Shown: piece after piece, positions 11,782-64,000 of the stretch
Numbering within the stretch: the first letter of the stretch is position 1
Layout: every line of letters begins with the position of its first letter
Notes under the pieces: model-generated
The model's database searches: none
Told to the model about the DNA's origin: nothing
What the model saw: the letters and a program-made list of their open reading frames with translations, nothing else
NCBI GenBank assembly: GCA_949130485.1
Contig: OX422185.1
Span: forward strand, 339,501-403,500
Reading direction: 5' to 3'
Length of the DNA stretch: 64,000 nucleotides
Source of the DNA: Agelas oroides
Lineage: Eukaryota; Porifera; Demospongiae; Agelasida; Agelasidae
Position numbers and translations under genes: made by a program

Positions 11782-12027
11782 CCCCCTGACCTCTGCACTC
11801 GGGACAGAGCCACCCGCTCTCAACTTGGGACGACACACCTTGACACACCCATATCTCCTAATGGGACGCCTTCGGAACGTATATCCCAGTAGCAGTGTCA
11901 GTGAGACGACTGCCATGCAACCCTGGAGCAGAAGAGGTGTGCTGTTCATGACCTCCCCCACCCCCCATCTTGCCGCCCTCCACTGAACCGGGAGAGGGCG
12001 GCAGGCGTATCGAGACTGGCGGCAGTA

Positions 12028-18000: not shown

Positions 18001-18345
18001 ACAAGTGTGTCCCATGCAGTTGTTGTGTTAGTGTGCTGATCATGATGAGAAACTAGCACACGTGGTGTGTCATACTGTTTTGGTGATGAGGAACTAGCAC
18101 ATGTAGTGTGTCATACAGTTTTGGTGATGAGGAACTAGCACATGTGGTGTGTCAAACCGAGGGTGCTAAAAAGGAAATTAGTGCTTGCATGTGCTAATAT
18201 GTTATGTAGCACAGCAGAACATGCCATTTTAGCACACTCCAGTGCTGGATTTGACCGTTTAGTGTGTTAAAGATATACAATAGCACACTCTGTGCTTATT
18301 TGGCACACCAGTTTTACCCAAATAGCACACCAGTTTTTTTCTGTG
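12028..18345. mobile_element. 6.3-kb TA-flanked non-autonomous DNA transposon
   Basis: The element starts CACAGAAAAAAA and ends TTTTTTTCTGTG, with TA on both sides (12026-12027 and 18346-18347). It splits a block that is continuous at 190-240 and 63841-63870 (GGCGGCAGTAGTTGAGTCC). Both subterminal regions are packed with variants of GTGTGCTA, GTGTGTCA or GTGTGCCA, about a dozen in 12042-12262 and inverted at 18020-18335. This is the pattern of transposase-binding subterminal repeats. The CACAG ends with a 2-bp duplication fit CACTA/EnSpm-like elements, though a Tc/mariner-type TA target cannot be excluded. No transposase frame is visible. It carries the satellite at 14433-17926; the rest (12300-14430) holds nothing I recognise. 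Confidence 0.75.
14433..17926. repeat. Satellite array, about 180-bp unit, about 19.4 copies
   Basis: The anchor phrase (CAGGCCCGAAACAG or CATCCATGAAACAG) recurs every 176-182 bp from 14433 to 17851. Two unit types interleave. One has GGTATGAGTGGTTCAAAAAG in its second half; the other has GGAGTAAGTGTTCTGAAAAT. Copies are highly similar, so the array is young or homogenised. It lies wholly inside the transposon and is not a host-flank repeat. A ~180-bp period is close to one nucleosome repeat, but nothing here shows centromere function. Confidence 0.95.
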
Positions 18346-18347
18346 TA

Positions 18348-19700
18348 GTGGAGTCCGATTCGAGCCCGCCACGTAGCGAGATCGATCCCCATTTCTACCT
18401 CCGTCAGATCTTCGAAAACAGCAACACAAAGAAATTCTCACAGTCTGACAACCACAACACATGACAAGAATGCTTTGGGCTCCAACGCCCTCGAGGTGGT
18501 CTGACCCAAGCGTGTTGCACGCGCTCGGGGTCTGGCTTCGCCGGACTACTCTCGAGGCGAGTTCTGAGGGGGTGGGGCTAGATTCCAATGTTCCTGTTGA
18601 ATGAGCGCTGATCCTTGCTCTAGTCTGGCCTGAGAGACTATCCTGCCTCTTCCTAGTATGAACCCATGCATGCAGATCCTCGGACATTGTGGCTGTCTCT
18701 GCTAAGTTCTAACATCCCCACCTACACAGTGTGTTGACTGGGAGAAACTTGACATTTTCATGATTGTACAACAGGACACAATCTTCCCATGTCATGTACG
18801 TTGATTGAAGGGGGGAGGAAGTGAGATGCCACCATTTTAATAGCGAAAGAACGTTACAATCCATAAGCTGTACACTACAATTAAGGTTGCTCAATATAGC
18901 TAGCATACAAATGGTAAAACACTAGCAGTATGCTGAATGTGTAAGGAATTTTATATCTTTCCAGGCTTCACAAATATGGAAGAACTATAGCTGTCCATCT
19001 GGAGCTCAACTGGCAGTATCCACTGAGTGAGTTTTGTTCCAAGCAAACAAGGACTGCTCTTAGTGAATCAACTTCACTTTTCACTAAGGACCACTATGGT
19101 AGACATTCACTTACCAAACCTTCCAACCTCCTCTTAGTTTCATTCCCAGCCCAAACTTTTCACATGCTATGCAGAAAAATTGTGTGTGGACACTTTCCGT
19201 AGGAAATCTGAAGCCAAGTTATAAATGTATAGTTGCACCAATCAGGTTGTTCTGTGATAGTTTGCAATTAACGCCTACAATTACTGATCTGACCTGGCCC
19301 CAGTTTTCCTGATGTAGATTCTGTTTTTCTGTGGTGCAAAACATGTGTCTGGAGTAGTGTTGTCTGTGCATGTGAGTGTGGTCTTTCTCCTGTGAACTAT
19401 GTTAGTGCACATTAAAATCTACTGGCACTGTTGCATTGTATAATGCTATTTATGTCTGCTGGTAATAAACAATGTCAATGTGCATTAAATCTACTGGTAA
19501 TGTTGTAATGTTATGGACAATATTTATTTCTGAAGAGAGTAAACACTATAGCCCTGGCTCTTTCCCCACATGCATGAAATGATAACTGAAAGGAAAGGAG
19601 AGAGCCTAAATACCACAGAGAATAAGAATTCATTTGCATGTGAGTGGATAAACTTTCCTAGATGTTGTGGCTGACAGTATCAGACTGGACATACTATGCT
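18348..19700 (-). repeat. Displaced upstream flank of gene A
   Basis: Near-identical to about 208-1560 (unit 0) and to the flank of B at 50463-52600. It is the continuation of the leader-exon flank after the insertion at 12028-18345. Minus-strand frames beginning near 18480 belong to the upstream leader frame and are not independent genes. Confidence 0.8.
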
Positions 19701-27372: not shown

Positions 27373-28257
27373 CTTCAGTAAATAGAGAGCCACATTGTGA
27401 TGTCCCATTGTTACAGCCAACCGAGAAGGTGTTGCATTATGTTAGGAGGACACTTCAGCTCTTTAACAAAGAACTGTACTACTTGTAGATGGCCTTCTCT
27501 TGCTGCAGAGTGGAGGGGAGTGTTCTTCCAAAAGTCTCTTTGGTTTGGCTTACACTGTTTCTCTAAGGTGAGGAATTTCACAATGTCTAGTTGTCCATTG
27601 GCTGCAGCACAATGTAGTGGTGTTATTTCGTTTCTAGTCAAACATAATCCTTGTTCATCAATCAAATACTTCATAATATGCAGATGACCCCTGGCAGCAG
27701 CATGATGAAGAGGGGTATGGCCATGAAAGCCTGGAATATTTGGACTACATTTAAGATCAGTGAGGAAGAATCGAAGTATGTCTATGTGACCATTCAGTGC
27801 GGCAATGTGTAAGGGAGTGTTCTTCTTCTTTGTTATCAGAGAAGGCATGAGGTCCTTCATTGGTTTGTACTTCTCAATCTCCTCAGTTAGAAATTTGACG
27901 ATGCTGAGACTACCCATCTCACAACTAATGTGTAATGGAGTCCATCCACTCTCACCTTGACACAGAGGTTCTACCTGGTGCTCAGTAACAAGATACTTGA
28001 TCACATCAAGGTGAGCTCGTTCAGTAGCCACATGAAGTGGTGTTCTCCCATATTGACCTGGACATGCAGGGTTGCAGTTTCTCTCATCAATGAAATACTT
28101 GAGTATGTCTAAACTCCCTCCCTGTGCAGCTGCGTGAAGAGCAGTGTTTCCATACTCGTCTTTCTGAAGTGGATTTTGGTGCTCCTTGTCTGTAAGAAAC
28201 GTGACTCCCTCCAGATCACCTCTCCAGGCAGCACGATGCAATTTAGGTATTTAAGTC
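27373..28257 (-). pseudogene. Copy B ankyrin exon, truncated
   Basis: This is homologous to the terminal exons of A and C and has eight readable ankyrin repeats plus a ninth out of frame. The 5' end stops at I-P-K-L-H, just after an in-frame TAA. Exon start, acceptor and the preceding acidic segment are missing, replaced from about 28258 by unrelated sequence. At the 3' end a deletion after C-P-P-N-I shifts the frame, so the last repeat reads only in another frame. Its Death and middle exons lie 9.6 kb away at 37860-39259, with transposons and another gene between. Confidence 0.85.
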
Positions 28258-32117: not shown

Positions 32118-32276
32118 GTGCCTAAAATCACGTGAAAATGGGAACCCCAGGATGCCCATATTTACGGGGTGTGCATATTTTCATACACCGGCACCTAGCA
32201 GGAACCATTCGGCACGCAGATACCGGAAATCTTGCACCAAAGATTGGGAGAGTCAGATTTCCTATATGACATCGGT

Positions 32277-37859: not shown

Positions 37860-38968
37860 CTTTTCAGCAAACTGGTAGTCTCCACAGATCAGTCTGATCA
37901 CACCCTCAGCTGCCAGGGCACTCTCTTGCTCACTGGACAGTGGAAATATCTCCTTCTGAATAAATGAGGGTACCTGAAAGATGAGCTGCAAACACCCCTC
38001 TTCTACTCGACAGAGACGCAAGACACTTTGTGGTGAAACACCAATAGTTTACTAAGTCTGTACTGGAAATTCTCTAGCTCTTCAACAGTAAATTGTTCGT
38101 ATGCTGAATCTACTTGTAAATCTAAAAAGGCATGATCAGCATCGCTGATAGGCCCAAAGACTGGGGGACATTCATAAATTCTACGCTTAGAATATTGACG
38201 AAAATCCTTCTTGTAGTTTTGAAGCTCAACTCTGTCCTGGTCTGTACCAAGCCCATTGACAATGTGTTCAATCACATAATAGTTGAAGAAAAGTAATCTC
38301 TAATAACCCACAGCACGTTCTCAATACTTGCAGCATTTCGAAGCTCTTGGAAGAACGTTTGAAGCAGAGGTTTCTGAGACTGCTTGGAAACAGGGTCAAG
38401 TGCACCCAAGGATAAGAGGTGGGTGACTAGTGTGTCCACGGAAACCTTTCGCTCACACTTGTAGACTGTGGAGAAAAGTTGCTGGAATTTGAACATTATT
38501 TCCTGTGATTCCACACGCAGCCTAGTTCTAAGTTCCTGCTTCTGTTCATTGGCATGGAAATGAGCTAGTTTTGGGAATGGGGTGTGGACAGCCATTTTCA
38601 ATATAACTATGGAATGTACAGTTGCCACACCCACACCCAAATGATGGCCTCTGAGATCTGCTTCTCTGACTGGGAGAGCTGAGTCCAGGACTGACATTGG
38701 CACCTTCAGAAGTGAAGACGTCATCTGCTGCTACATTGCGAGCACACAAGTCTTCTTGACACAAGTCTTCCTGCTCTCTGAAGGGAGTTTGCTTGATGGT
38801 TTGAGAAGCTGCAGTTGAACCCACTGTAGACAAGAGACAAAGCAATTCTGTAAGCAGTCTCTCAATATCTCCAGCTTCTGTTGCCACCAGGATCACAAGC
38901 ATTTACCATATATACTTCTAAATATTCAAACACACATTTTACAATAGCTTATTAAATTTTAATCTTAC

Positions 38969-39259
38969 CTGGATGTTGTTCAGCAATGCTCAGGGCAAGA
39001 GCACAATTGTCTCCAGCTGCAGGGTGTGCTACTACTTTCACCACAGCTCGCCATGTTGGTTCACCAAATCTCTCCACATTGTAGTTTCTTTTCACCCAGC
39101 AGATAAGCATCTCTGATAAACACTCTTTAGGTTTCCCAGAATTGCTTTCTTGAATTGTGTCCAGACGTCCAGAATCAATTCGGAGACCTGCACCAATGGC
39201 CTTCCAACTACTAGCAACTGACATCATCTCTGTCAGTATATCAAAGCGATCTTCTTCTC
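38969..39259 (-). pseudogene. Copy B Death-domain exon, itself intact
   Basis: 291 nt, phase 1 at both ends (CATGGTAG|GAGAAG; CATCCAG|GTAAGA). It reads G-E-E-D-R-F-D-I-L-T-E-M-M, then W-K-A-I-G-A-G-L-R-I, then G-E-P-T-W-R. No stop or frameshift within the exon. It is listed as pseudogene only because the rest of copy B is broken. Confidence 0.8.
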
Positions 39260-41350: not shown

Positions 41351-42963
41351 GTACGCTAGCAATATTCTGTGACACACATGCATATTTGATTACCTGAGTA
41401 GAGGGACAAAATTTCACTGCTGTAAGGAAAGACCTACGTAATAATTAGTGATCTTGCAATCTCATTGGTCCTGACCACAATGTGGGAACAGGCCTAAGAA
41501 ATTTGACTTGGTTCACCAGACCATCTCTCACCTGGGGGCTAGGGACATGTGTGGCTGCATGGGCACAAGACTACTCTAATACCTCCATTGTCACAAATGA
41601 GTATGTGTGGTGTCAAGAATGTTCAGAATGCAATCCACAAGTCATGAATAATGAAGTTAATTATGAATGCTTGCTGAGTCATGAAGTGATGTATATAGTG
41701 TGCTTGTAGTTATCATGAACTGTTCAATGTTTGCATCTCATCCGACAAAGTGAAACTTCCAGTTATCATGAGAAAATAATATACAACATGAACAACATGA
41801 ATTTGAATAAGGCTCATTCGTTTTTCTCCTCCCACACAGCTTGGGATGAGGCTAAACATGACCCTGAACAAGCTGGTTACAAATACGTAATTCCAGAGAA
41901 TGTGTTCAGCATTGTGAATGTGTTTGCTTTTTCTCCTTGCTCCACACACAGTCTCCACTGCATCAGAAAATCCACTACTACCAGTAGTAGATATTCTTTT
42001 CCTTGAGGTTCGCTCGCACACTTTGTGATGTGTATCTTGATTGTTCGTAACTTAGTTGTTTGTTTTTCAAACTTGGCTGTGAGATATGCTTACACACGTA
42101 AAACGTTGCATCATCCTACACTTGAGCTGGTTCTCCAAATAGCAAGAGATGGGAGTTGGTTGACGTGAAGCGTTGCAACATGAAGACTTTTATAGTAGAA
42201 TGTACACACACAACCTCATTATAATGTCACAAATGAAGAGAGGACCAATAGCAAGGGGTCATCATTTATGTGCAGTGTTTGTGATGGGGATCAAATCAAA
42301 TGATCAGTGTACTTTTAAGAGCTGATCAAGGAATTAAGATTAATTCCAAATGGCAAAGGTGATCAACAAGTTTCCCAATGCTAAGGAGGTGTAGTTACGT
42401 GTGACATCGTGCAATGTCTACTCTAGTATATGAATGCTTCATGTACTGTCAAGAATGTTCAGAATGCAATCAGCAAGTCATGAATAATGATATTATGCTA
42501 TATTATTTGGTGAGTCATATTCAGTTACATTGGCCATGGTGCAGTAAATGTTTTTGGACCTTGATTGAAAGGACACTCACGACAGAATTTCCATCAATAT
42601 AGAGTCATGGTAGAAGTGGTGCTTATAACTTCAATAATTTTTAAGAAGGGATGAAGATGACCTCCAAGGAACAGAGCTCAGCAGATCAACCAGTTCTCCA
42701 AATACTAAGATAGTCTCGTATGATCAGACCCTAGACCCAGTAGAGTCGGGTCATGCAAGACTAATACTAAAAATATACTAAGAAGGTCACTATTTTGTCA
42801 TTTGAACCAAAAGCTGCAAGGTGAAAAGACATGACTATTAAGTGATCATTCACAAGCTTCGCTGTCTTAATCCCGGTCACAAACACTTTGCTACTGGATA
42901 AGTTACTACCACTGAATTTAGTCATTTTGCCCAAAACTGGGTTGTAAATACCTTCTAATTTAC

Positions 42964-43072
42964 CTGTAGGGCCAGGATTTCTCTCCACATCTCCTGCCAG
43001 CAGCAGTAGCGTCAGCATCACTGCACACACCCCCAGCAATAAGCACACCCCAATAATGCCCGTATCCGCCAT
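42964..43072 (-). CDS. 2A leader exon of copy B
   Basis: Same 109-nt length as in A and C: M-A-D-T-G-I-I-G-V-C-L-L-L, a hydrophobic run, then A-G-D-V-E-R-N-P-G-P-T and an intact donor ACAG|GTAAAT. The start context has G at -3 and +4. A Ginger1-like transposon begins 87 bp upstream of the start codon. Confidence 0.8.
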
Positions 43073-43158
43073 TCCCCTGACCTCCGCACTCGGGACAGAG
43101 CCGCCGCCTCTCAACTTGGGACGAGACACCTTGCCCCGCCCCCACCTCCCAATGGGAC

Positions 43159-46100
43159 TGTCACGAAAAAATTGGACCTAGGTAAAAATTGGCCCGGGGG
43201 TCCAATTTTTACCGCCAAAAGTGGCCCGCCCGGGCCACTTTGGAATGCAATAAATGGTCCGTGCGTACGAAAAGTGGCCCCACTGTAGCGTATAAAACTA
43301 ACGTGCGAAAAGGACCTTTACAATGAGTTTTGCGAGCAAAAATCGAGATGGAAGTGTCGGATCAGTTCGTAAGCGACAGCGGAGAAGTCGAAGGAGGTGG
43401 CGATCTCGTCCAAGAGGCGTACATCTACCTGACAGAGCACCGCTACCCGCAGGACTGCACTTATGCTCGCAAGCGAAGCATACGAAAGAAAGCTGGGAAA
43501 TTTGTAGTGCGTGATGGAGAACTGTTCTTCAAAAAGAAGAGGAAAGGCAAGGTATGGACCGTCTAGAAGAAATCGATTGACAGCTATTGATTAATTTCTA
43601 AATAGAGCCCATCGTTGCAAATCGTCATCATTTTTCTCTATACTTCCATGTAGGTGATTGAGCTGCGATACATCCAGAACCGTGACGAGCAGTTGAAAAT
43701 ACTTCATGCTTGCCACACTGATGCGACTGCTGGGCACATGGGCATCAAGCGTACCACGACTCGCATATCGGAGCGTTTTATGTGGAATGGCATAGTGAAG
43801 GATGTGAAGGAAATGGTAAGTGCACCACTTTTCCTTTCTTTCAAAATTACTTTAACAGAACAAGAATGCTTTACAAGATATGGAATAATATATTTCAGCA
43901 CTACCATTTAAATATTGCAGATATCACGTTGTGATGCTTGCCAGAGGATGAACAAAAAGATTAGTTCAACAATGCCAGAGCTCCATCCTGTACCAGTGAC
44001 GTCTCCGTGGTATCACATTGGAATTGACTTCGTGGGACCAATCACCCCACTGTCACGCAATGGCAATCGTTTCATCCTGACAGTGAGCGACTACTTTACG
44101 AAGTGGGTTGAAGCAGTTGCTCTACCTTCAAAGTGTGCACAAGGAGTGGCTGAATCACTTTTCAAGGTATGGCATACAGTGTGATGTGATGTCATTTGTT
44201 ATTTCCAAGTAGTGTTTAAGTTCAAATACTGCAATACATTCACATTGACTAAACTAATTGCTTTTGCAGATCTTCATGCGCATGGGCTTGCCACATGTCT
44301 TGACAACTGACCAAGGGAAGGAATTTCGCAACCAGCTCAATGAGGAACTCATGAGGAGTCTCGGAATCAAGCATCGCCTGACCACGGCATACCATCCACA
44401 GGTTACTTACTCCTTTCCAAGCCGTAATAGTTAAGGTGGCTATACATACATTGTTGGGATCAAGCATTCTTGTCATGTACTGCATAGGTAACATGCTACT
44501 TCACATGCAACTTTTTTTTCCTCAGGCAAATGGTCTTGACGAGCGCTATAATCAGACCTTGCAAAACATGCTGGTGAAGTACGCAACCGACAAAAGGGAT
44601 GAGTGGGACGACTACTTAGACACCTGTGTGTATGCGTACAATACATCAGTACAAGAGTCGACACGCTTCTCACCTTTTGAGGTCATGTTTGGGCGTAAAC
44701 CAACCATGCCAATTGACATTGACATGGCTACCAACATCCCTGAAGACCAGCTCCAGAAGTATCTAGAAGCCAAAGAGCTTTCTCAGACACGAGTTGAAGA
44801 AATGGCATCCCAGCGTCAACAGCTCCTCCAACAAGTGAAGGCAAACATCAAGCAAGCTCAGGACAAGCAGAAAGAGTATTATGATCGCAAACATGCAGAC
44901 CCTGCAGCTTACAAAGTGGGTGCTAAAGTCCTGAAGAAGGACTTCCTGCGCAAGAAGCGCAAAGGAGGCAAGATGGACACACGATTTGTTGGGCCATACG
45001 TCATCACAAAGAATGTTGGCAAGGGTCTGTATGCCCTCCAGTTGGTGAAAAATCCTTCAGTGGTTATTCAGCGAGTTAATGGGGCTCATCTTAAGCCTTA
45101 CCAAACTCCTCTCCAAAGCCCTGCAAGTAGTTTTGCAAGCAATTCCTCCTCAGCCAGCCACAACCAGAGTCATGACGGTAGACTCTTAAGCGAGGAGGGA
45201 GAATCCCTTGCTAATGGCCCCCACAACAGCTTTACAAGTAAAGGAGATAACTCCACTCCAGCTACAGCTAGTGATGATTCCATTCCACCACTACCACCAC
45301 CAATGCCTCCTCTTAGTCTATTGAAAGGTGCAATGGGGCCTGAGTCTTCCATTCCCCCAGCCAAAAAGCCTCACATCTCTCCAGCAGCAAGTAAACACGA
45401 CGACACTTATACAGTAGATTGCCCGCCAGCAGATTTAACATACACCAAATTCCCGGCCCAACCAAAACATCTTGATGTGCTCCCACCTTTACCTTGTGGT
45501 TCTCTTCCATCACCATCAGCAGCAAGCTCACCAGAAAAGAGGCTACCACAACCACACGACAAAGCTGCTCAAAACCTTCTGTTTAAATGGCGACAGTCAC
45601 GATTGAGGAATGAATCCGACAAAAAGACGGTGGTGACATTGGATGACTATCACCTCACTGGTGAAACCAGTGAACCTCAGCCACCATGGATAAACAATGG
45701 TCTGGTCACACTCAGCATGGCAGACAAAGCAATCTTGGAAGGAAAAGAGTGGTTGACAGACAGCATCGTGAATGCTGCTCAAACAATGCTTGCAGACCAG
45801 TTCATCATGACCACAGGGTTCCAGAGCACAAATGCTGGATTGTGCATGACCTTCACAATCGAGCCAGATGAATTTGTTCAAATTCTTCACGATGGGAGTG
45901 CCCATTGGGTTACAATCTCTACTATCGGTTGTATGCACCCAGAAGTCAAGATATTCGACAGCCTCTATTGCACCTTATCACCTGCCCTAAAGCGTCAAAT
46001 TGCTGCTCTGCTAGCTACCAAAGAACGCAAGATTTCTGTTCATTTTATGGACGTACAGATGCAAGCAGGGAGTAGTGACTGTGGCTTATTTGCCATAGCA

Positions 46101-46769
46101 TTCGCCACATCACTTTGCTATGGACAGTCACCTGGCAAGTTTCACTTTGATCAGAGTGCCATGCGCAAACATCTCATAAGCTGCTTTGAGAGGGGCCATT
46201 TTGAGATGTTCCCCATTGACCGAAACAGGCGGAGCAAAAACAAAGTTAAGGCAACAAAGACAATAGCTGTTTACTGCTCATGCCGAATGCCTGAACTTCT
46301 GGGGAGTGAGATGATTCAGTGTGCAGACTGTAAAGACTGGTTCCATATTGGCTTTTGTATAACAGTAGATAAAAAGGCTAGGAGTTTAAAATGGCATTGT
46401 ATTTCTTGTTCATAGATTGTACTCATCATTACAGTAAGTATCATGCACAGTGATGATAATTTTATCCAGCACCAAGTTGACAGACACCATGCATGATCAT
46501 TCTGGATCCACTTTCAACAACGTTTACTGGCCTGCCAGGTCCACTTGTGGCAACTAAAACTTGCCCCCTAGGTCCACTTATGGCAACTAAAACTTGCCCC
46601 CTAGGTCCACTTATTGCAACTAAAACTTACCCCCTAGGTCCAATTTTGGCAACCAAAAGTGGCCCTGGGAGGGCCACTTTTAGTATTGAAGGTCCACTTT
46701 TGGTTGCCAAAAGTGGACCTAGGGGGCCAGTTTTAGTTGCCAATAGTGGACCTGGGGGACCTGAGGACA
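43159..46769 (+). mobile_element. Apparently complete Ginger1-like DNA transposon, 3.6 kb
   Basis: The element starts TGTCACG and ends GAGGACA. It is flanked by GGAC at 43155-43158 and 46770-46773, a 4-bp target duplication. The interrupted sequence is continuous in the other copies (CCTAATGGGACGCCTTCGG at 37-55). TGT termini, a 4-bp duplication and an intron-containing integrase gene fit Ginger1 elements. Subterminal repeats rich in AAAAGTGGCCC and GGTCCACTTTTGG occur at both ends (43160-43290; 46530-46760). Confidence 0.85.
43348..46415 (+). CDS. Ginger1-like transposase: integrase + Ulp1 protease + PHD finger
   Basis: Five exons: 43348-43551, 43654-43815, 43921-44166, 44270-44401, 44526-46415; 2634 nt, 877 aa, all phase 0 with GT..AG introns. 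Domains in order: an H2C2 zinc-binding motif (H-A-C-H, G-H-M-G, C-D-A-C); an rve integrase core with D158, D218 and E254, exactly DD35E; a GPY/F motif (F-V-G-P-Y-V-I); a long Pro/Ser-rich linker; a C48 Ulp1/SENP protease with H708, D726 and C767 (S-D-C-G-L-F-A); a C-terminal PHD finger (C-S-C, C-A-D-C, W-F-H, C-I-S-C). All catalytic residues are present and no frame is broken, so the element may be recently active. The Ulp1 part may remove SUMO and the PHD part may read chromatin; both are inferences. Related domesticated genes (GIN1, KRBA2) are alternatives, but the flanking termini favour a transposon. Confidence 0.88.
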
Positions 46770-47085
46770 GGACGCCTGCGGAACGTGTATCCCAGTATCA
46801 GTGACAGGGAGACGACCGCCATACAGCCCTGGAGCAGAAGAGGTGTGCTGTCCATGACCTCCCCCACCCCCCATCTTGCCGCCCTCCACTGGACCGGGAG
46901 CGGGCGGCAGGCGTATCGAGACTGGTGGCAGTAGTTGAGTCCGATCCGAGCCCGCCACGTAGCGATATCGATACCCATTTCTACCTCAGTCAGACCTTCG
47001 ACTACTGTAACACAAAGAAACTCGCACAGTGACACTGTCAGAAACCACAACACACGACAAGAATGCTTTGGGCCACTCCTAGAGG
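46770..47085 (-). repeat. Displaced upstream half of the copy B leader frame and flank
   Basis: Matches unit 0 (about 48-330) and C (63690-64000). The extended-leader ATG would be at 46978 (M-G-I-D-I-A-T-W-R-A-R-I-G). The Ginger element cuts this frame from the inner ATG at 43072. Confidence 0.75.
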
Positions 47086-54874: not shown

Positions 54875-56491
54875 TTAGTGGTTAGTTGAATGCTGAAATT
54901 TCTGTAAATACCGAGCCACAATATGATTGCCCTTGGTTTCAGCCAACTGACGAGGTGTTGCATTATGTCGACCTCTTATGTTAGGAGGACACTTCAGCTC
55001 CTCAACAAAGAACTGAACTACTTGTAGGTGGCCATGTTCTGCTGCAGTGTGGAGAGGAGTGTTCTTCCAAATGTCTCTTTGGTTTGGATTACAGTGTTTC
55101 TCTAACGTGAGGAATTTCACAATGTCTAAAAGTCCATGGTATGCAGCACAATGAAGTGGTGCATGCTTCTTGCTATCCAAACATGATGGGTCACAGCCTT
55201 GTTCATCGATCAAATACTTCATAATGTTCAGATGACCCCCTTCAGCAGCATAATGAAGAGGGGTACCACCATGCTGGCCTGGAGTGTTTGGACTATATTT
55301 CAGATCAATGATGAAGAATTTAAGTATTTCCAAGCGCCCATTGCGTGCTGCCCAATGGATAGGAGTGGCAGCATAACAGTTTCTAGATGTTGCACTACAG
55401 TGCTTTTCCAAGGTAAGGAATTTCACGATGTCCAAATGTCCATTGCATGCAGCACGATGAAGTGGTGTTTCTTTTTTTCTATCCAAACATGATGGGTCAC
55501 ATCCTTGCTCATCAATCAAATATTTGATAATGTGCAGATGACCCTTCTCAGCAGCATAATGAAGAGGGGTACCACCATGCTGGCCGGGAGTGTTTGGACT
55601 ACATTTCAGATCAGTGATGAAGAATTTAAGTATTTCCAAGTGGCCGTAGCGTGCTGCCCAATGGATAGGAGTGATACCAGAAGAGTTTCTAGATGTTGGA
55701 CTGCAGTGCTTTTCCAAGGTAAGAAACCTCACAATGTCTAACTGCCCATTGCCTGCAGCACAATGAAGTGGGGTCTGTCTGTCTCCATCCAAACATGATG
55801 GGTCACATTCTTGTTCATCTATCAAATACTTCATAATGTGCAGATGACCCCACAAAGCAGCACTATGAAGAGGAGTGCGACCAAGAAAGCCTGGAATCTT
55901 TGGACTACATTTCAGATCAGTGATGAAGAATTGAACTACGTCTATATGGCCCTTCAGTGCAGCAAGGTGTAAAGGAGTGTATTTCTTCTTTGTTGTTAGT
56001 GAAGGCATGAGGTCCTTCATTGGTTTGTACTTCTCAATCTCCTCAGTCAGAAATTTGACAGTGTCGAGGCACCCACCTTCACAACTAACGTGTAATGAAG
56101 TCCATCCATTCTCATCCTGACACAGAAGTTCTACCTGCTGCTCAGTAACAAGATACTTGACCACATCAAGATGAGAATGTTGAGTAGCATAATGAAGAGG
56201 TGTTCTTCCATGATGACCTGGACATGCAGGGTTACAGTTTCTCTCATCAATGAAATACTTGAGTATATCTAAACTCCCTCCCTGTGCAGCTGCGTGAAGA
56301 GCCGTGTTTCCGTACACATCTTTCTGAAGTGGATTTTGGTGCTCCTTGTCCGTAAGAAACTTGACTCCCTCCAGATCATCTCTCCTGGCAGCAAGGTGTA
56401 GTTGAGGTATACTCCCAGTTAACTGATGCCCACTAGATACCTGAAGTGTGCTTTCCTCGTCCAGTTCATCCAGTTCTTTAGATAAAGGGTC
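54875..56491 (-). CDS. Gene C terminal exon: about 15 ankyrin repeats
   Basis: The acceptor is CAACACAG|GACCC, phase 0, and the exon is open for 538 codons to TAA. It has the same first five repeats and last two repeats as A. The middle consists of three-repeat blocks: T-P-L-H-Y-A-A-E..., T-P-L-H-R-A-A..., T-P-I-H-W-A-A-R.... Each block is about 100 residues and is repeated almost unchanged, so growth was by block duplication. Confidence 0.92.
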   Translation of the reverse strand, partial: DPLSKELDELDEESTLQVSSGHQLTGSIPQLHLAARRDDLEGVKFLTDKEHQNPLQKDVYGNTALHAAAQGGSLDILKYFIDERNCNPACPGHHGRTPLHYATQHSHLDVVKYLVTEQQVELLCQDENGWTSLHVSCEGGCLDTVKFLTEEIEKYKPMKDLMPSLTTKKKYTPLHLAALKGHIDVVQFFITDLKCSPKIPGFLGRTPLHSAALWGHLHIMKYLIDEQECDPSCLDGDRQTPLHCAAGNGQLDIVRFLTLEKHCSPTSRNSSGITPIHWAARYGHLEILKFFITDLKCSPNTPGQHGGTPLHYAAEKGHLHIIKYLIDEQGCDPSCLDRKKETPLHRAACNGHLDIVKFLTLEKHCSATSRNCYAATPIHWAARNGRLEILKFFIIDLKYSPNTPGQHGGTPLHYAAEGGHLNIMKYLIDEQGCDPSCLDSKKHAPLHCAAYHGLLDIVKFLTLEKHCNPNQRDIWKNTPLHTAAEHGHLQVVQFFVEELKCPPNIRGRHNATPRQLAETKGNHIVARYLQKFQHSTNH

Positions 56492-59400
56492 CTGTGTTGT
56501 AGTTCAATTTAGAATTTGCAATCACTTACTGAGACAATATCTAATGTAATATTAAGGGTGGTTGGAACTAACAACTGTGTTGATCCAAAAGTATGCAAAA
56601 GCTGTTGTCCTAAAACAACCTGAACAATTATTTTGATGACCTAAAGCCACTTACTGACACCACAGGAGCACACAGCACCTGGTTATGAAGGCGGCAGTGA
56701 TTCAGAGCTAAGTGCCGGCTTGACAGATGAAGAGTTTGACCGGCCCGGAACTAACCGATAACGTGCCAACTGTTCCGAGCTAGAAGACCTCCTTTGTGAC
56801 TGTTCACTATCTCTTGCATACATACCATGATGGCAGCAAGGACAATTTTTCAATGCTACAAGGTATGTGTGAGCTTCAGTTTTATTTATGCATGTAATGT
56901 AAGTCAGTATCTGTGCACGTACTAAGAATGTCTGCACATGTAAACAGTTGCCATGGTTTTGTAAGTGTATTATCTCTGTATCAGTGTTTGTGACAAGGAG
57001 TCCAGCTCCTCAGCCACAATGCTAATGGTAAGATTCAAAGTTGCACATATGTACAGCAGGCATCACTGAAGAACACTTAGAAGAGTCCACACACAATTAT
57101 TAATTGCTTCTGCACTATTACATACTTTTCTCACTCACAATTCTAGCATTACGATGAACACTCACTGACCTCTTCATCATCAGAAAACATGCATGAACTT
57201 CTGTCGTCTGTAATAATACTGACCCCCATGGCAGAGTCTGCATCAATGTCGTGTATTGTTAGTGCTGCCTGAAACACTGAGGCCCTCAGCTCTGCAAAAA
57301 ATTCTAAAATGGAAGCCATGTCACGGCATATCAAGCCACTGAAGTGAGATGAAATATGATTTACACCACAAAGCTCAATCCAGAGATACTATATAGAAAC
57401 TATTTGTATTTTATCGTTCACAGAGTTACATGCCCTCTTCCTTTTGTGGTTGATATGTGGTTATGTGTAAAATGTCAACTTTTTGCCTTCAGCAACAGAT
57501 TTTGAAGGAAAACGTGTAGCAGTAAAGCGAACAATAAAAACTTGAAGTATTCACTTGAGTGTTGTGTGTTCATTAAACAGTAGTACAAATGATATGGTAA
57601 TTAGTCTGTAACTTAAGCTCTGTATAATGTAGCGTACGGTCATTATGGCCATGATTTTGCTATTTTCTTTCATTACGCACAAACACATTTACTATGAACA
57701 ACTAACATTTGTCTATCTACAGGTGGCATTCTTGTCTTTTAACTTTGTCTGATTGAACAGAGCAGGGTCATTCAATACCCATGTTTCACGAGGCCATAAT
57801 AGGTAGACTGTCGCTTATATGGCCACCGTGTGCTAACTGAGGAATCAAAGAGTTAAATTTACAAACAATTTAACCCTCAATAGACTTTAGCTACTGGATA
57901 CGCCATGCAAATTTATCTGTTCAGTACAATCTTCTGATCCAGCACAGGAGCCCCTTCTGTCTAATAAAATTCATAACACATTAATTTATATACATTTTAT
58001 ATGTACAATGAACAGAATTCTTTACAATTCGATGAGCTTTGTTCCAGTGACAACAGAGCATGCCAAAGCGCTCTACAAACTGAGATTAGTACTTGTAAAT
58101 GCAAAAGGATCCAATACTACGTAGCTCTCTAGAGTTACCATGCAGGAGACTGTGACGCAAATATCGTCCGTGACATGTTTGCCGCCAACAGCTTTAAAAG
58201 ATATTTCTCTGATACCTGAAAATGCAGACGCCCTGTTTTTTTCATGCACTATGTTACCTAAGCATTACTGCGCACAGTGGCGTAGCCAGGTCATTGGTAT
58301 TGGCCGGGCACCTGCTGTACGCTAGCCCATTAGCCTCTAGGGAGTCTAACAACACTAGCGCTCATGCACGCTTTGCGTGAGATCGCATGACATTAGCGGG
58401 ACGAACATGGTGCTTTGGCCGGGCACGTGCCCGGCCAGGCGCGGCCTTCGCTACGCCACTGACTGCGCATATGCAGGAAAAGTGGAATTGCTTAGTACTC
58501 AGAAAATGCTAAATACAGTAAGTGGCCATAATAGGGGACCGTACCCTATGTCTACAGTCTACACACCCGTACAGTATTCCTGGCTCACCAGTGTCTTCTG
58601 GTTCAGATCCATTCTTATCTCCCTATGAATGAATGGAAAGAAGAATTTATTCAATGGTGTGAGTTGAAATAGAGGAAAGTGAAAAGCTGGCAGTCACTGA
58701 GGATTGACCCCAGGGCTACTTGAGCTGTCAGTGGTCTGACAATGAGTTGCAACCACCAAGCAACTACCAGCTCTTGCAATCCTCTTTATGTATATGTAGG
58801 TGTTGAATGCTTTGTACACCAGTGACGTGCATGACTACACAATACCTTGGCAGCAAACTGATAGTCTCCACAGGTCAATCTGATCACACCCTCTGCTGCC
58901 AGGGCCCTCTCTTGCTCACTGGACAGTGGAAATATATCCTGTTGCACAAATGAAGGTAGCTGGAAGATGAGCTGCAAACACCCCTCCTCCACTCGACAGA
59001 GACGTAAAACACTTTGTGGTGAAACATGTAAAATTCTACTAAGTCTGTATTCAAAATTCTCTAGCTCTTCCACAGTAAATTGGTCATATGCTGAATCAAC
59101 TTTCAAAACTAAATCAGTGTGATCAGCATTGCTCAGAGGTCCATAGACTGGGGGACATTCAAAAATTCTTCGCTTAGAATATTGGTGAAAATCTTTCTTG
59201 TAGTTCTGAAGCTCATCTCTGTCCTGATCTGTACCGAGCCCATTGACAATGTGCTCAATCACATGGTAGTTAAAAAAAGAAAAATAGTCTTTAATTATGT
59301 AAAGCACTTTTTCGATAGTTCCTGCATTCCAAAGTTCTTTGGAGAAGGTTGTAAGCAGAGGTTTCTGAGAATCTTTGAAGACTGGGTCAAATACCCCCAG

Positions 59401-62400
59401 GGACAAGAGGTGGGTGACTAGCCTGTCCACACTAATATTTCGTCCACGCAGTGACTCATAGACCGTGGATAAAAGTTGCTGGAATCTAATCATTATTTCC
59501 TGTGATTCCACACGCAGCCTACTTCTAAGTTTCCTTTGTTGTTCATGGGTAAGTCCACTCACATTGAGAAGTGGGAATGAGCTAGTTTTGGGAATTGGGT
59601 CTGAACACCCATTTTCAATGTAACTAAGGAATGTGCACTTGCCACACCCACACCCAAATGGTGGCTTCTGAGATCTGTCTCTCTGACTGGGAGAGCTGGG
59701 TCCTGGACTGCCACTAGCACCTTCAGAAGTGAACCTGTCTTCCTCTTCATCTTCCTTTCTTTTCTTTTCTCCTGCCATTTCCCCCTCTAACACCCCCCTC
59801 TGTTTCCGAGGAGAGATCACCTCCATAGGGCCAGCGAGGTGAGGGTTTGCAGTTGAAATGAAGGTCTGTTCTGTCAATGCTTGGGGGCTGGGTGTCACCA
59901 GGGTGGAGCTGGAGGAACCTAGTGTGTGTACATGGTGTGTCATGTGCCATTCTGCAATACATATCCTGTTATTTCACAAGAAAGTACATACAAACAATTT
60001 CATTACCTGGATGTTGTTTAGCAATGCTCAGGGCAAGTGCACAATTGTCTCCAGCTGCAGGGTGTGCTACTACCTTCACCACAGCTCGCCATGTTGGTTC
60101 ACCAAACCTCTCAACATTGTAGTTTCTATTCAGCCAGCAGGTAAGCATCTCTGACAAACACTCCTTGGGTTTCCCAGAATTGCTTTCTTGAATTGTGTTC
60201 AGACGTCCAGGATCAATTCGGAGACCTCTACCAATGGCCTTCCAACTACTGGCAATTAGCATCATCTCTGTCAGTATATCAAAGTGATCATCTTGTCCTA
60301 CAAGAAAGAAGTGATGTCGACACAATATGTGTTTTTGAAGGCATCGTCAATTCCAAGGAATGATTAATATATATCAACATTTGAGTATTGACCTTCTCAA
60401 TTAACTAACCTAATGGTGTATTATCCAGTTAATGCATAGTATTTACACATGTTGGTGCTCAATGTGACCTCTCAACCAACACTATTTCTAACCTAATGGT
60501 GTATTATCCACAGTGGGGAGCACCTTATCCACCTGATCAGATCCTACATGGAGAACAAATTAAGATACCGGGTAAATAGCTCCAAATGCTACACTTCTGC
60601 CATGGGGTGAATGTGAGTTCTTAATAATATTAAGCTGATTGGTCAGAAGGTGTTTGTTGTGACACTATTTAATAATTTATGTTATTACTTGTCTTCCAGT
60701 CACAACGTACAACACTGCTATACATACAGTAAGGATACATAACTGATGACAGACATGCAGCAACTTGTATACTGTTATCAGCATGGAGTCTACTGACTGC
60801 AAACTTCGACCTCAGGTAGTAGCTACCTTTTCCAGGAGTATACACGTACTCACTATGTATCATATTTGCCACACCAAGTAATGTAGTCTCCTGGACCACA
60901 GAGTACAGTACAAGTGATTATATCCTCAGAAGGAAAGTGGAGATGGTGGATGACATGTAAGCCGCTGAACAAAGTTCCCTCCACCTATAGCTCTAGTCTC
61001 AGGCCCAGACTCCACCCTCTCATCAGGAAAACCAGTCAGCTAAAAAGTCAAATTTCTTGGGCTAGTGTATGCTTTTCCAGTTAGTGTAACCAACATTCAA
61101 AACATTGTGCCACACCCACTCACAAAGGTTTCGAGAGGCAAAATTTTCCTGCTATAAGGGAAGTGCTACACACAAAGAAAGGTTTTATTAGCTCTAACCA
61201 CATTTTGGGAATAGACCTAAGAAATTCGACTTTGTTCACCAGACTGTTTCTCACTGGGAGTCACACGTGTGCTCTGGGCACAAGACTACTCTACACCTCC
61301 ATTGTCACAAATGAGTGAGTGTGGTGTCAAGAATGTTCAGAATGCAATCCACAAGTCATGAATAATGAAGTTGAAGTATGAATACTCGCTGAATTAGTGA
61401 TGCCTACAGTGTGCTTGTATACTTTTAGTTATCATGAACTGCTCATTAATGTTACTATACCGGCCCCTGATTGGAATACAATATGTACCGTGTATCCTTT
61501 GCCTGCCGAGTCACATTTCCTTAATAAATTTAAGTACATGTGAATATTGTCCACTGCTTGTCTGACATAGAAGTGCAATCACAACGTACGTGATCATGAG
61601 AAAATAATGTACAGCATGAGCCTGAACAAGCCTTGTTCCCAGGCCGTATGTTTTCCTACTCCCACACAGCCTGGGAATGTGGCTAAACATGAACCTGAAC
61701 AAGCTGATAACCAATGTGCAAGAGATGAATCTATTCCAAAGAACGTGCTAAGCATTGTAGGTGTGTCTGGTATTAGAGCACAAATGAAATGCAATTATAA
61801 AAGGGTCGCGTAAGGTGCCGGGTGAAAGCCGCATACGTTATCATTAATTTTGTACTAAATAGGACAGAACATCCTCTGTCAACGTGCCTGCGCCATGCCA
61901 CGCCCTCTGCATACTTAGACCTTTGTCAGACAGTTGTGAGAGCTTGATCAACGTCAAGGAACGTCAAGGAAGAAAAGGAGGCCATCCCTCAGGTGATCTT
62001 TAACAAAGAATTCAAACAATAGCTGTGTGATTTCAGTGAACTGTACCCAGGTGAGCAAGAATGGGAAGCATTTGCCTCAGTTCTGTGGTCACCGCTACAC
62101 AATCTGCCAGGGACAATGATGATGCAAATATAGACTTTTCTAGCCAGTACAACATTTCAGCAACCTGGAAACTCTCAGAGAAAATGGACCCAGAAGGAGT
62201 GAACTCAACCTACACAACATACTACCAAATGCAGCACATTTGAGACCCAGAGCTGTGTTTGGTAGCAGAAAACATTTAAGTGGTACGTACCATATCTATG
62301 CTATCACGCATGCATCCTGCAAGTGAAAGTCTCCACCCTTCAGTCTGAACTAGTTTCAAAGTGAAGAGGAAAGTATACACTGTTCTTGTCCAGGTTGTCA

Positions 62401-63606
62401 ATTCGTCTATAAGATGCCCACCTCATCAGGCCCGACACGTACAAGGTCAACTATAGTGACTGAAACGCCTTGTGACAACTGATGTGTATCGTGGCAAACG
62501 GCAGTATTACTCCTGCCATGCACTCTAGTCGGACTAGTGGCATTTGGGTACAGATTGTGTAGTGGAGACAACAGAGCTGTGGCAAATGCTTCCCATTCTT
62601 GCTCATCTGGGTACAGTTCACTAAAATTACACAGCTATTGGTTGAATTCTTTGTTGTTAAAGATCACCTGAGGGATGGCCTCCTTGGCGTTGATCAAGCT
62701 CTCACAACTGTAGTATGCAGAGGGCGTGGCACGGCGCATGCACGTTGACAGGATGTTCCGTCCTATTTAGTACAAAATTAATGATGACGTATGCGGCTTT
62801 CACTCGGCACCTTACGCAACCCATTATAAAATAGTGTCTGGATTGTCCACAGACGGGTACACGTGGTGACTTTGTCCTTGCTTCCTTACTCTTTCACATT
62901 GACATTGCATGCGTGCAGTAGATCTTTTCTCCATTACATTAGCCTTTTTCTCTTGCTCCCCACACAGTCTTTGTTACATCAGCAGAACCACTATTACCAG
63001 TAGATATTCTTTTCCTGTGAGGTTCACTTACACACTCTCTTATTACACATTACTTGACATGTGGTGGTCAGTACCTTAGCAATGTTTGTTTTTCAAACTT
63101 TATTTTGAGATACACTTGCACACGTGAAATGTTGCATCATGAACATAAGGAAATTTACAGTAGAACGTATGCATACATTATCTTATTAACATTACACAAT
63201 GATCGGGTTACTGGACAAATGAGGAGTAGTCACTAACACGTCACCTGTAGAAGTGTTTGTGACTGGGATCAAATCAAGTGATCAATTTATTTTTAAGAGC
63301 TGATCAAAGAATCAAGGTTAATTTCAAATGGCAAACATCAACAGGTCAGGTTTTCACAATTATGCTTCGGAGGGAAACGATCATGCAATTTTCGCCAATC
63401 CTAATCTTGACTCCCAGTTGTCAACATTTCTGTGCAGGAAGTGGCAAATTTGAAGGCTCTTACTTTAAAATTTATAACAGTTAACCACCTTCTTTACCTG
63501 TGGGGCCGGGGTTTCTCTCCACATCTCCTGCCGTCAGCAGTAGTGCCAGCACCACTGCACACACTTCCAGCAATAAGCACACACCAATAATGCCCGTGTC
63601 CGTCAT
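54875..63606 (-). CDS. Gene C: intact 2A leader - Death domain - ankyrin protein
   Basis: Seven exons, minus strand: 63606-63498, 60543-60493, 60297-60007, 59951-58846, 58622-58589, 57291-57170, 56491-54875. Total 3330 nt, 1109 aa; every junction has GT..AG and a matching phase. Order: leader (1-35) with hydrophobic run and DVERNPGP; linker (37-53); Death domain (about 54-150); middle domain (151-519) preceded by a Cys-rich segment with F-G-C-G-C-G-K-C; acidic linker (520-571); about 15 ankyrin repeats (572-1109). Ribosome skipping between Gly34 and Pro35 should give a leader peptide and a 1075-residue Death-ankyrin protein that begins P-T-G-S-D-Q. The leader resembles a signal sequence, so unskipped product might go to membranes. 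Death domains signal through like domains and ankyrin repeats bind proteins, so an innate sensor or adaptor is plausible but unproven. This is the reference copy of the array. Confidence 0.88.
56492..57169. other. Last intron of gene C with unrelated inserted sequence
   Basis: The left end of the 5139-type MITE is at about 56549. At 56658-56764 the plus strand holds a short acidic frame (G-Y-E-G-G-S-D-S-E-L-S-A-G-L-T-D-E-E-F-D) ending in TAA. It looks like the C-terminal exon of some other gene or transposon. I cannot assign it. Confidence 0.4.
58275..58461. mobile_element. 187-bp hAT MITE with exact 8-bp target duplication
   Basis: Starts CAGTGGCGTAGC and ends GCTACGCCACTG. ACTGCGCA lies on both sides (58267-58274 and 58462-58469). 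The terminal sequence and duplication length are typical of hAT elements. It lies in the intron between the 34-nt and 122-nt exons of gene C. Confidence 0.88.
58846..59951 (-). CDS. Gene C middle exon with Cys-rich segment
   Basis: The acceptor is GTATTGCAG|AATGG (phase 1) and the donor AAG|GTATTG (phase 0). A basic/acidic low-complexity part (E-K-K-R-K-E-D-E-E-E-D) precedes the Cys-rich segment F-G-C-G-C-G-K-C and N-G-C-S-D-P-I-P, then the conserved domain described for A. The Cys segment could bind metal; this is speculative. Confidence 0.88.
60007..60297 (-). CDS. Gene C Death-domain exon
   Basis: 291 nt, phase 1 at both ends (TTCTTGTAG|GACAAG; CATCCAG|GTAATG). It reads G-Q-D-D-H-F-D-I-L-T-E-M-M, then W-K-A-I-G-R-G-L-R-I, then G-E-P-T-W-R-A-V-V-K-V-V. 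It differs from copies A and B by a few substitutions and no indels. Confidence 0.87.
60493..60543 (-). CDS. Gene C 51-nt microexon
   Basis: Reads S-D-Q-V-D-K-V-L-P-T-V-D-N-T-P-L with acceptor CTCCATGTAG|GATC and donor CATTAG|GTTAG, phase 1 on both sides. Including it keeps the frame (51 nt is 17 codons), so it could also be skipped without loss. Confidence 0.8.
   Translation of the reverse strand, partial: DLIRWIRCSPLWIIHH
61803..62822. mobile_element. 1.02-kb Mutator-like MITE with exact 9-bp target duplication
   Basis: Arms of about 260-270 bp are inverted copies (outer ends GGGTCGCGTAAGGTGCCG and GGGTTGCGTAAGGTGCCG). ATTATAAAA occurs on both sides (61794-61802 and 62823-62831). Long inverted ends with a 9-bp duplication fit Mutator-like elements. 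No transposase frame is present. Confidence 0.88.
63498..63606 (-). CDS. 2A leader exon of gene C
   Basis: M-T-D-T-G-I-I-G-V-C-L-L-L-E-V-C-A-V-V, hydrophobic to residue 25, then A-G-D-V-E-R-N-P-G-P-T and donor ACAG|GTAAAG. The short ATG at 63606 is preferred because it alone gives a signal-like leader. It also survives the transposon insertions in A and B. The frame is open further upstream to an ATG at 63897 (M-G-I-D-V-A-T-W), which would add 97 residues with a second hydrophobic segment. Confidence 0.85.
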
Positions 63607-64000
63607 CCCTCTGACTTCCGCACTCGGGACAGAGCCGCCCGCTCTCAACTTGGGACGACACACCTTGCCACACCCACACCTCCCAATGTGACGTCTGCGG
63701 AACGTATATCCCAGTATCAGTGACAGGGAGACGACCGCCATGCAGCCCTGGAGCAGAAGAGGTGTGCTGTTCATGACCTCCCCAACCCCCCATCTTGCCG
63801 CCCTCCACTGGACCGGGAGAGGGTGGCAGGCGTGTCGAGACTGGCGGCAGTAGTTGAGTCCGATTCGAGCCCGCCACGTAGCGACATCGATCCCCATTTC
63901 TACCTCCTTCAGACCTTCGACTACTGTAACACAAAGAAACTCGCACAGTGACACTGTCAGCAACCACAACACACGACAAGAATGCTTTGGGCCACTCCTA
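63607..64000 (-). other. Upstream leader frame and flank of gene C
   Basis: GC-rich block homologous to 1-350, 11782-12027 and 46770-47085. The frame in phase with the leader is open from the window edge. A second frame on the same strand is also open for about 160 codons (63494-63979), so openness alone is weak evidence for coding. The upstream ATG at 63897 would give a 133-residue leader. It is left as unproven 5' region. Confidence 0.55.

Follow-up and report, generated by a model that had tools for sequence, protein, structure and literature searches.

The window analysed here, 64,000 nucleotides (nt) from the sponge Agelas oroides (contig OX422185.1, C3:339501-403500 in our genome scans, which covered the 259-Mb assembly of 141 contigs), carries on its minus strand gene C, together with copies A and B of the same kind. 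Joined in phase, the seven predicted exons of gene C (Table 1) give one frame of 1202 amino acids (aa) with a single terminal stop, in which a leader ending in a 2A (StopGo) ribosome-skipping motif is followed by a Death domain, a middle domain and ankyrin repeats. An earlier note on this DNA had rightly seen that the seven exons join in one frame, although the product is 1202 aa and not the 1109 aa given there. The three D-V-E-R-N-P-G-P sites on which that note was built were all recovered by a six-frame search of the window for NPGP, which returned three sites, all on the minus strand and each reading GDVERNPGP behind a hydrophobic stretch. We consider it likely that gene C belongs to a large gene family of innate-immune type, whose first exon encodes a 2A leader of 128-136 aa.

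Gene C and its predicted product

The conserved frame of the leader exon is open back to 63897, where gene C carries the N-terminal motif MGID(V/L/I)ATWRARIG (family form MGIDxATWRARIG), and the methionine at 63606, previously taken as the start of the exon, is codon 98 of this frame. We compared 25 distinct leaders, picked by the pattern MGID...NPGP among the loci fetched, a selection that cannot show how often NPGP has been lost. A methionine in the stretch of the supposed start at 63606 is found in 15 of these leaders and in 1 of 6 of the C1 type, and so is not conserved, unlike the MGID methionine, which defines the leader set and has a purine at -3 in 22/25. Hence, what had been described as a short leader signal of about 36 aa is a conserved leader of 128-136 aa (132 aa to the skip site in gene C), with a conserved N-terminus and two hydrophobic 19-residue segments in all six copies measured, the second adjoining the 2A motif; the segment coordinates in Table 1 are reckoned from the exon start at 63897. 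Such leaders would escape the screen proposed earlier, which looked for 2A motifs no more than 40 residues from the N-terminus.

The donor of exon 1 probably lies at 63489 instead of 63498, the position first suggested, at which ACAG/GT is present in 4 of the 25 leaders. A phase-1 GT, read by eye, stands 4-16 nt behind NPGP in all 25, and these phase-1 donors match the phase-1 acceptors of exons 2 and 3 of gene C. No in-frame stop lies ahead of the exon 1 donor, and the intron between exons 1 and 2 measures about 2.9 kb. The microexon predicted in the earlier note does fit in matching phase at 60543-60493, but the frame stays open with or without its 51 nt, so that its use is unproved.

The Death domain of exon 3 scores just above the PF00531 gathering cut-off (23.0 versus 22.6 bits), and the structural model of the exon (mean predicted local distance difference test score, pLDDT, 73), whose best fold matches are Death domains, agrees with the six-helix Death fold. 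A sequence search of the PDB with the same exon returned GLE1 as the best match (E 0.066) and the Death domain of FADD with E 0.39. The ankyrin repeats of exon 7 are confirmed by Pfam. The middle exon has no Pfam match, and its predicted fold (mean pLDDT 44) is too low in confidence for a structure search. Pfam detected neither NACHT nor a PHD finger in exons 1, 3, 4 and 7; reverse transcriptase was not searched for. For the leader itself, CEND1 was considered and rejected, its Pfam score of 14.7 bits against a cut-off of 27 being taken as chance. A possible N-myristoylation signal in MGIDxA was also considered and set aside.

Table 1. Exons, leader elements and related copies in the window (positions counted from its first letter).
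Feature	Position	Strand	Remarks
Gene C, whole model	63897-54875	-	seven GT-AG exons
Gene C exon 1, leader, MGIDVATWRARIG... to GDVERNPGPTGKE	63489..63897	-	phase-1 donor; alternative donor 63498
Gene C hydrophobic segment 1, leader residues 47-65	63703..63759	-	Kyte-Doolittle 1.79
Gene C hydrophobic segment 2, leader residues 103-121, just before 2A	63535..63591	-	Kyte-Doolittle 3.01
Gene C 2A core D-V-E-R-N-P-G-P	63502..63525	-	predicted skip between G and last P
Gene C exon 2, 51-nt microexon	60493..60543	-	phase 1 at both ends; optional
Gene C exon 3, Death domain	60007..60297	-	PF00531 23.0 bits and fold model
Gene C exon 4, middle domain, 1073 nt	58846..59918	-	conserved; 114 genome matches; no Pfam match
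Gene C exon 5, 34 nt	58589..58622	-	splice prediction only
Gene C exon 6	57170..57303	-	splice prediction only
Gene C exon 7, 1617 nt, ankyrin repeats and stop	54875..56491	-	Ank_2 345.5 bits
Copy B leader, N-terminal part	46760..46978	-	
Insertion splitting leader B, about 3.6 kb	43169..46759		
Copy B leader, C-terminal part including 2A	42959..43168	-	
Copy B Death exon	38970..39257	-	PF00531 22.2 bits
Copy B middle exon	37860..38725	-	frame change near 38045
Copy B open frame, ankyrin repeats	27414..28250	-	shorter than that of gene C
Leader 5' end fragment, residues 1-20	18333..18392	-	
Copy A leader, residues 16-136	11665..12027	-	no MGID start, 2A retained; alignment to leader
Copy A Death exon	7681..7968	-	PF00531 22.2 bits, just below cut-off
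Copy A middle exon	6570..7415	-	without PFGCGCGKCTF stretch
Copy A open frame, ankyrin repeats	3784..5097	-	
Fourth leader, 5' part	1..255	-	extends left of window (C3:339345-339755)

The leader family and its linkage to downstream exons

Genome-wide, the leader query gave at least 89 matching rows and a C1-type leader query at least 93; 66 of the 89 cover residues 1 to at least 133 and are stop-free. After split rows had been merged (C3:678, C1:4641, 6385, 3796, 4419, 4320, C22:5340) and short or weak ones left out (C3:678686, 678949, 467333, 678551, 130204; C1:3853844, 638101, 411789; C11:980673), 83 leader places were counted, 53 on C1, 19 on C3 and 11 on C2, C4, C5, C9, C10, C14 and C22, the two halves of leader B being counted as two of them. 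The pattern of the N-terminal motif has 61 matches in the genome (control 0), of which, by eye, 58 fall within the 83 places and 3 are fragments.

In the 25 distinct leaders, a set selected for NPGP, the core reads DVERNPGP (19), DVETNPGP (4), DVEKNPGP (1) or DVARNPGP (1); gene C and 24 of the 25 fit the 2A consensus (D/G/C/N)(V/I)ExNPGP, the remaining one having E changed to A. The hexamer preceding the core is leucine-rich and ends in AG in all 25, and compared by eye it agrees with the upstream motif of a class of StopGo sequences described in PMC12846837. Among the 53 places on C1, which were found by leader similarity, 49 hold the exact core pattern, and the other 4 are fragments or contain stops. 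Moreover, the core is strongly conserved at the protein level: the proportion of non-synonymous differences (pN) is 0.006 against a synonymous proportion (pS) of 0.39 among C3-type copies, and the rate ratio (dN/dS) of the core is 0.011 in the C3 type (16 copies), 0.074 in the C1 type (6 copies) and 0.018 between types, compared with 0.425, 0.399 and 0.331 for the whole leader. When pN/pS was taken in nine-codon windows, the core ranked 1/100 in the C3 type and 3/68 between types, beside the windows of MGIDxATWRARIGLN. Protein-level constraint thus acts on the two ends of the leader and less on its middle.

The leader is closely linked to the exons that follow it in gene C. The middle exon of gene C has 114 matches in the genome, and at 76 of the 83 leader places one of these follows on the same strand at a distance of up to 13 kb (median 2.7 kb), while opposite-strand middle exons near the 83 leaders number 1 downstream and 1 upstream. 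Viewed from the other side, 86/114 middle exons are preceded by a leader or 2A site from our lists. The order leader, Death, middle and ankyrin, as in gene C, recurs at L060, L062, L068 and L070, four of five regions examined.

Other copies and neighbouring features in the window

Among the copies in the window, only gene C looks intact, as judged from its sequence. The earlier claim that three leader exons are each spliced to a Death-domain exon holds, by sequence, for gene C, but copy A lacks a start and the leader of copy B is split. Copy A retains the 2A, Death, middle and ankyrin parts, its leader beginning at family residue 16; leader B is interrupted after residue 73 by the insert of about 3.6 kb. 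Within this insertion lies an open reading frame (ORF) of 659 aa (44436-46415, plus strand) which to the eye resembles an integrase with an Ulp1-like protease and a PHD finger, as in a putative Ginger-type transposon.

Two pairs of segments, 208-457 with 18345-18594 and 527-826 with 18669-18968, are 99% identical, and the second copy holds the leader fragment at 18333-18392. Elsewhere, 14432-17931 is made up of tandemly repeated units of 181/357 nt (for the 181-nt unit, 19.5 copies with 87% matches), and 50658-51785 is an inverted repeat with arms of 537 nt, 96% complementary and spaced by 54 nt. Between genes A and B, an ORF of 498 aa (32232-33728, plus strand) contains cysteines, has a hydrophobic stretch near its start and looks secreted by eye.

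2A sites beyond the Death-ankyrin family

The pattern D[VIM]ExNPGP has 285 matches in the genome and none in the reversed control; 104 of the sites read D-I-E, and 59 read D-V-E with non-GTG codons. Pfam was scored for 150 of 870 Death candidates and 105 of 314 NACHT candidates. Of 211 of the 285 sites compared with these matches, 8 are followed on the same strand by Death and 5 by NACHT at up to 5 kb, with 0 of each in the other placements. Within 10 kb these numbers rose to 13 and 7, and the other placements gave 1 (upstream, same strand), 0 and 1 for Death and 1, 0 and 0 for NACHT. Most of the 211 sites have no scored Death or NACHT match near them.

Individual regions were read at L061, L063, L064 and L066, which were chosen for a NACHT or Death match just downstream and are therefore no guide to proportions. 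In L061 (C11) the leader and 2A are followed by two Death-like domains (17.6 and 24.7 bits), NACHT and leucine-rich repeats (LRR); in L063 (C3, 15.6 Mb) one intronless frame of 246 aa comprises the leader, its 2A site GDIELNPGP and a domain of Death type that stays under the cut-off at 20.1 bits, with NACHT behind it. In L064 and L066 the 2A leader precedes a Death domain scoring above the cut-off and, after that, long ORFs; LRR are present in L064. The leaders of these four loci measure 135-155 aa from the first methionine of the frame and have two hydrophobic segments each; the similarity between leader types, obtained by BLAST without composition correction, is inflated by hydrophobic bias, and we do not claim a common origin. 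The arrangement proposed in the earlier note, with a 2A leader and a Death-ankyrin protein sharing one frame, finds support in sequence, in constraint and in a large family, but it is not confined to such proteins, 2A leaders also fronting genes of NLR type.

A different kind of region was found at L065 and L067, picked as dispersed sites, where a hydrophobic stretch and 2A are followed by a PHD finger in retroelement-like ORFs. The 285 core sites therefore comprise both genes of immune type and ORFs resembling those of retroelements.

Several runs of 2A sites were seen in addition. Thirteen D-I-E sites, all on the plus strand, lie in C1:4605-496714, where the region read (L064) has leader, Death and LRR. 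Five more on the minus strand, at C1:3025738-3226353, are each 0.8-1.5 kb from a middle-exon match; lying outside the places with MGID leaders, they perhaps represent a further leader type. A run of D-V-E and D-I-E sites at C9:646747-2068508, several with Death downstream and including L066, is apparently another cluster.

Proposed ribosome skipping and its alternatives

From its sequence, we estimate at roughly 0.78 the probability that ribosome skipping yields a membrane leader and a Death-ankyrin protein from one messenger RNA (mRNA) of genes such as gene C. The ribosome would complete NPG, free the leader and restart at the next proline. One product would be the leader ending in NPG, probably membrane-bound through its two hydrophobic segments, and the other a Death-middle-ankyrin protein starting P-T-G-K-E, which is probably cytosolic. 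We infer both the skipping activity in A. oroides and the destination of the products by analogy; release of the leader and of a proline-initial protein is likely because the core and its leucine-rich context match a StopGo class, the L-rich (A/S/C)G upstream class, of which one member put to the test, motif 6, showed activity in vitro (PMC12846837).

Some observations weigh against this reading. The PF00531 score is under the cut-off in three of five copies tested (22.2 in A, 22.2 in B and 19.8 in L060; 24.5 in L062 is above it), and the Death-fold matches of exon 3 score only moderately. The exon joins of gene C are predictions from genomic sequence, those of exons 2, 5 and 6 from gene C alone. 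Seven of the 83 leaders have no middle exon nearby, the 10 kb read at one of these seven (L069) gave no match to Death, middle or ankyrin queries, and for 28/114 middle exons our lists hold neither a leader nor a 2A site upstream, a count that used 100 of the 285 2A sites. The linkage count is also weakened by 21/83 leaders that have a same-strand middle exon upstream as well, as would be expected in tandem arrays. Concerning the leader itself, the core window ranks only 16/87 in comparisons within the C1 type (six sequences), the second hydrophobic segment shows no sequence conservation within the C3 type (dN/dS 1.11), and two natural leaders have a damaged core, by an E to A change in L012 (C3:504193-504603) and by a frame change in L045 (C3:628539-628844).

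When the ribosome reaches the skip site, 10-28 residues separate the catalytic centre from the second hydrophobic segment, and 66-84 residues separate it from the first; given that the exit tunnel holds 30-40 residues (PMC2978324), the second would still be in the tunnel and the first outside. Since the first segment would already be exposed, the ribosome could dock at the endoplasmic reticulum (ER) ahead of the skip decision. Such docking could reduce skipping, with a minor unskipped, membrane-anchored Death-ankyrin protein as the likely second outcome. It has been reported that the sequence just upstream, while crossing the translocon, can inhibit 2A in cells, 2A being efficient in vitro (PMC2978324), and by analogy membrane docking would be able to modulate skipping here. 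The leader protein would presumably have a function of its own; being long, with a conserved N-terminus and two hydrophobic segments, it may constitute a separate product.

An alternative that we regard as possible, although not the better bet, is the view of the earlier note, in which the main purpose is dual targeting, skipped Death-ankyrin protein being cytosolic and unskipped protein being sent into or through membranes in a ratio tuned by the leader or by stress. The leader of sea urchin NLRs offers a precedent, with about 80% skipping in vitro (a qualitative estimate) and the rest exocytic (PMC4981915), and the hydrophobic stretch before 2A, which differs among paralogues of the C3 type as noted above, could tune such a ratio. 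However, comparisons across leader types show the initial ~15 residues to be as constrained as the core, more than a simple signal should require. The first hydrophobic segment, moreover, leaves the tunnel ahead of the skip, which sets this leader apart from the 26-aa one of the sea urchin.

Rather doubtful is a wider proposal: that in this lineage many immune-type proteins with a Death domain (Death-ankyrin, Death-NACHT-LRR and others) regularly begin with a 2A leader, of which there would be several types, 128-155 aa long, with two hydrophobic segments and a terminal 2A. Each mRNA would then yield the membrane leader and a cytosolic Death effector at about 1:1. The skip rate would be set by docking at the ER through the first segment, so that the amount of free Death protein would depend on the state of the membrane, and some "membrane-bound" sponge NLRs would partly be such leaders.

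It is unlikely that the leader is a captured piece of ORF1 of a non-LTR (long terminal repeat) retroelement, spread by duplication, with its 2A activity a relic. The genome does contain retroelement-like ORFs with 2A, and L065 and L067 both show the hydrophobic stretch, 2A and PHD finger; 2A sequences in non-LTR elements are moreover published, being named in PMC4981915 and PMC11512398. Yet few parts of the leader are as constrained as the core, by the window ranks given above for the C3 type and between types, the leader precedes a middle exon in 76/83 places and is not dispersed alone, and gene C shows no PHD match in the four exons scored. An ancient retroelement origin of the leader may nevertheless be considered.

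Even less probable is that the leader exon stands alone, as a short gene of its own or an upstream ORF never joined to the Death exon, a reading which the long first intron and a join known only from the genome would allow, but against which stand the phase-1 donors of all 25 leaders with the phase-1 acceptors of exons 2 and 3, the stop-free frame up to the donor in gene C, the linkage to the middle exon and the one uninterrupted frame of the similar arrangement in L063.

This one animal genome holds 285 core matches, in genes and retroelement-like ORFs, and a gene family with dozens of stop-free copies under selection for the core. This family makes regular ribosome skipping in the expression of animal immune-type genes testable, and it supplies natural leader variants, including a core mutant. 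Transmembrane predictions in sponge immune receptors may, moreover, reflect a released leader, a caution that would extend by analogy to Dysidea avara.

Comparison with known systems

We found no earlier report of a 2A leader on Death-ankyrin genes or in sponges, in a searched literature that is thin on subscription journals. Judged from titles and listings, the cellular 2A sequences in it are those of sea urchin NLRs; NLRs are named as 2A carriers in PMC11512398, which cites the sea urchin work and a 2010 chapter. StopGo is described in PMC12846837 as largely viral, its motifs being found very rarely in cellular coding sequences. Like the viral L-rich StopGo sequences of that paper, gene C has D-V-E-x-N-P-G-P behind a leucine-rich hexamer ending in A-G, with G before D; unlike them, as they stand in long viral ORFs, its element is cellular, N-terminal and in a separate exon.

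The 2A elements of non-LTR retrotransposons, in which a hydrophobic stretch and 2A likewise lie near the start of an ORF, are also represented in this genome (L065, L067). Gene C differs from these retroelement-type ORFs in having Death after 2A where they have a PHD finger. The main paper on these retrotransposon elements is Odon et al. 2013.

In the sponge Dysidea avara, families with Death and NACHT are greatly expanded, as in the present genome, and transmembrane domains in sponge NLRs were taken to suggest membrane-bound forms (PMC12909245); the available portion of that work names no 2A leader.

The closest known system is sea urchin SpNLR2A (Roulston et al. 2016; PMC4981915), in which a 26-aa 2A leader acts as a signal and other 2A sequences are placed "within the N-terminal region". 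As in gene C, a hydrophobic stretch and then 2A front Death-containing proteins of innate-immune type in a large family. In contrast to the short assayed leader of 26 aa, that of the sponge family has 128-136 aa (132 in gene C), two hydrophobic segments, a conserved N-terminus and its own predicted exon; and while SpNLR2A fronts Death-NACHT-LRR proteins, genes such as gene C front Death-ankyrin, NACHT behind a 2A leader being found elsewhere in the same genome, in L061 (with LRR) and L063. Hence, an N-terminal 2A leader on immune-type genes is already known from sea urchin NLRs, whereas a leader that is both long and conserved, its position on a predicted exon of its own, a Death-ankyrin family in which no NACHT was detected, and the scale of the phenomenon are new.

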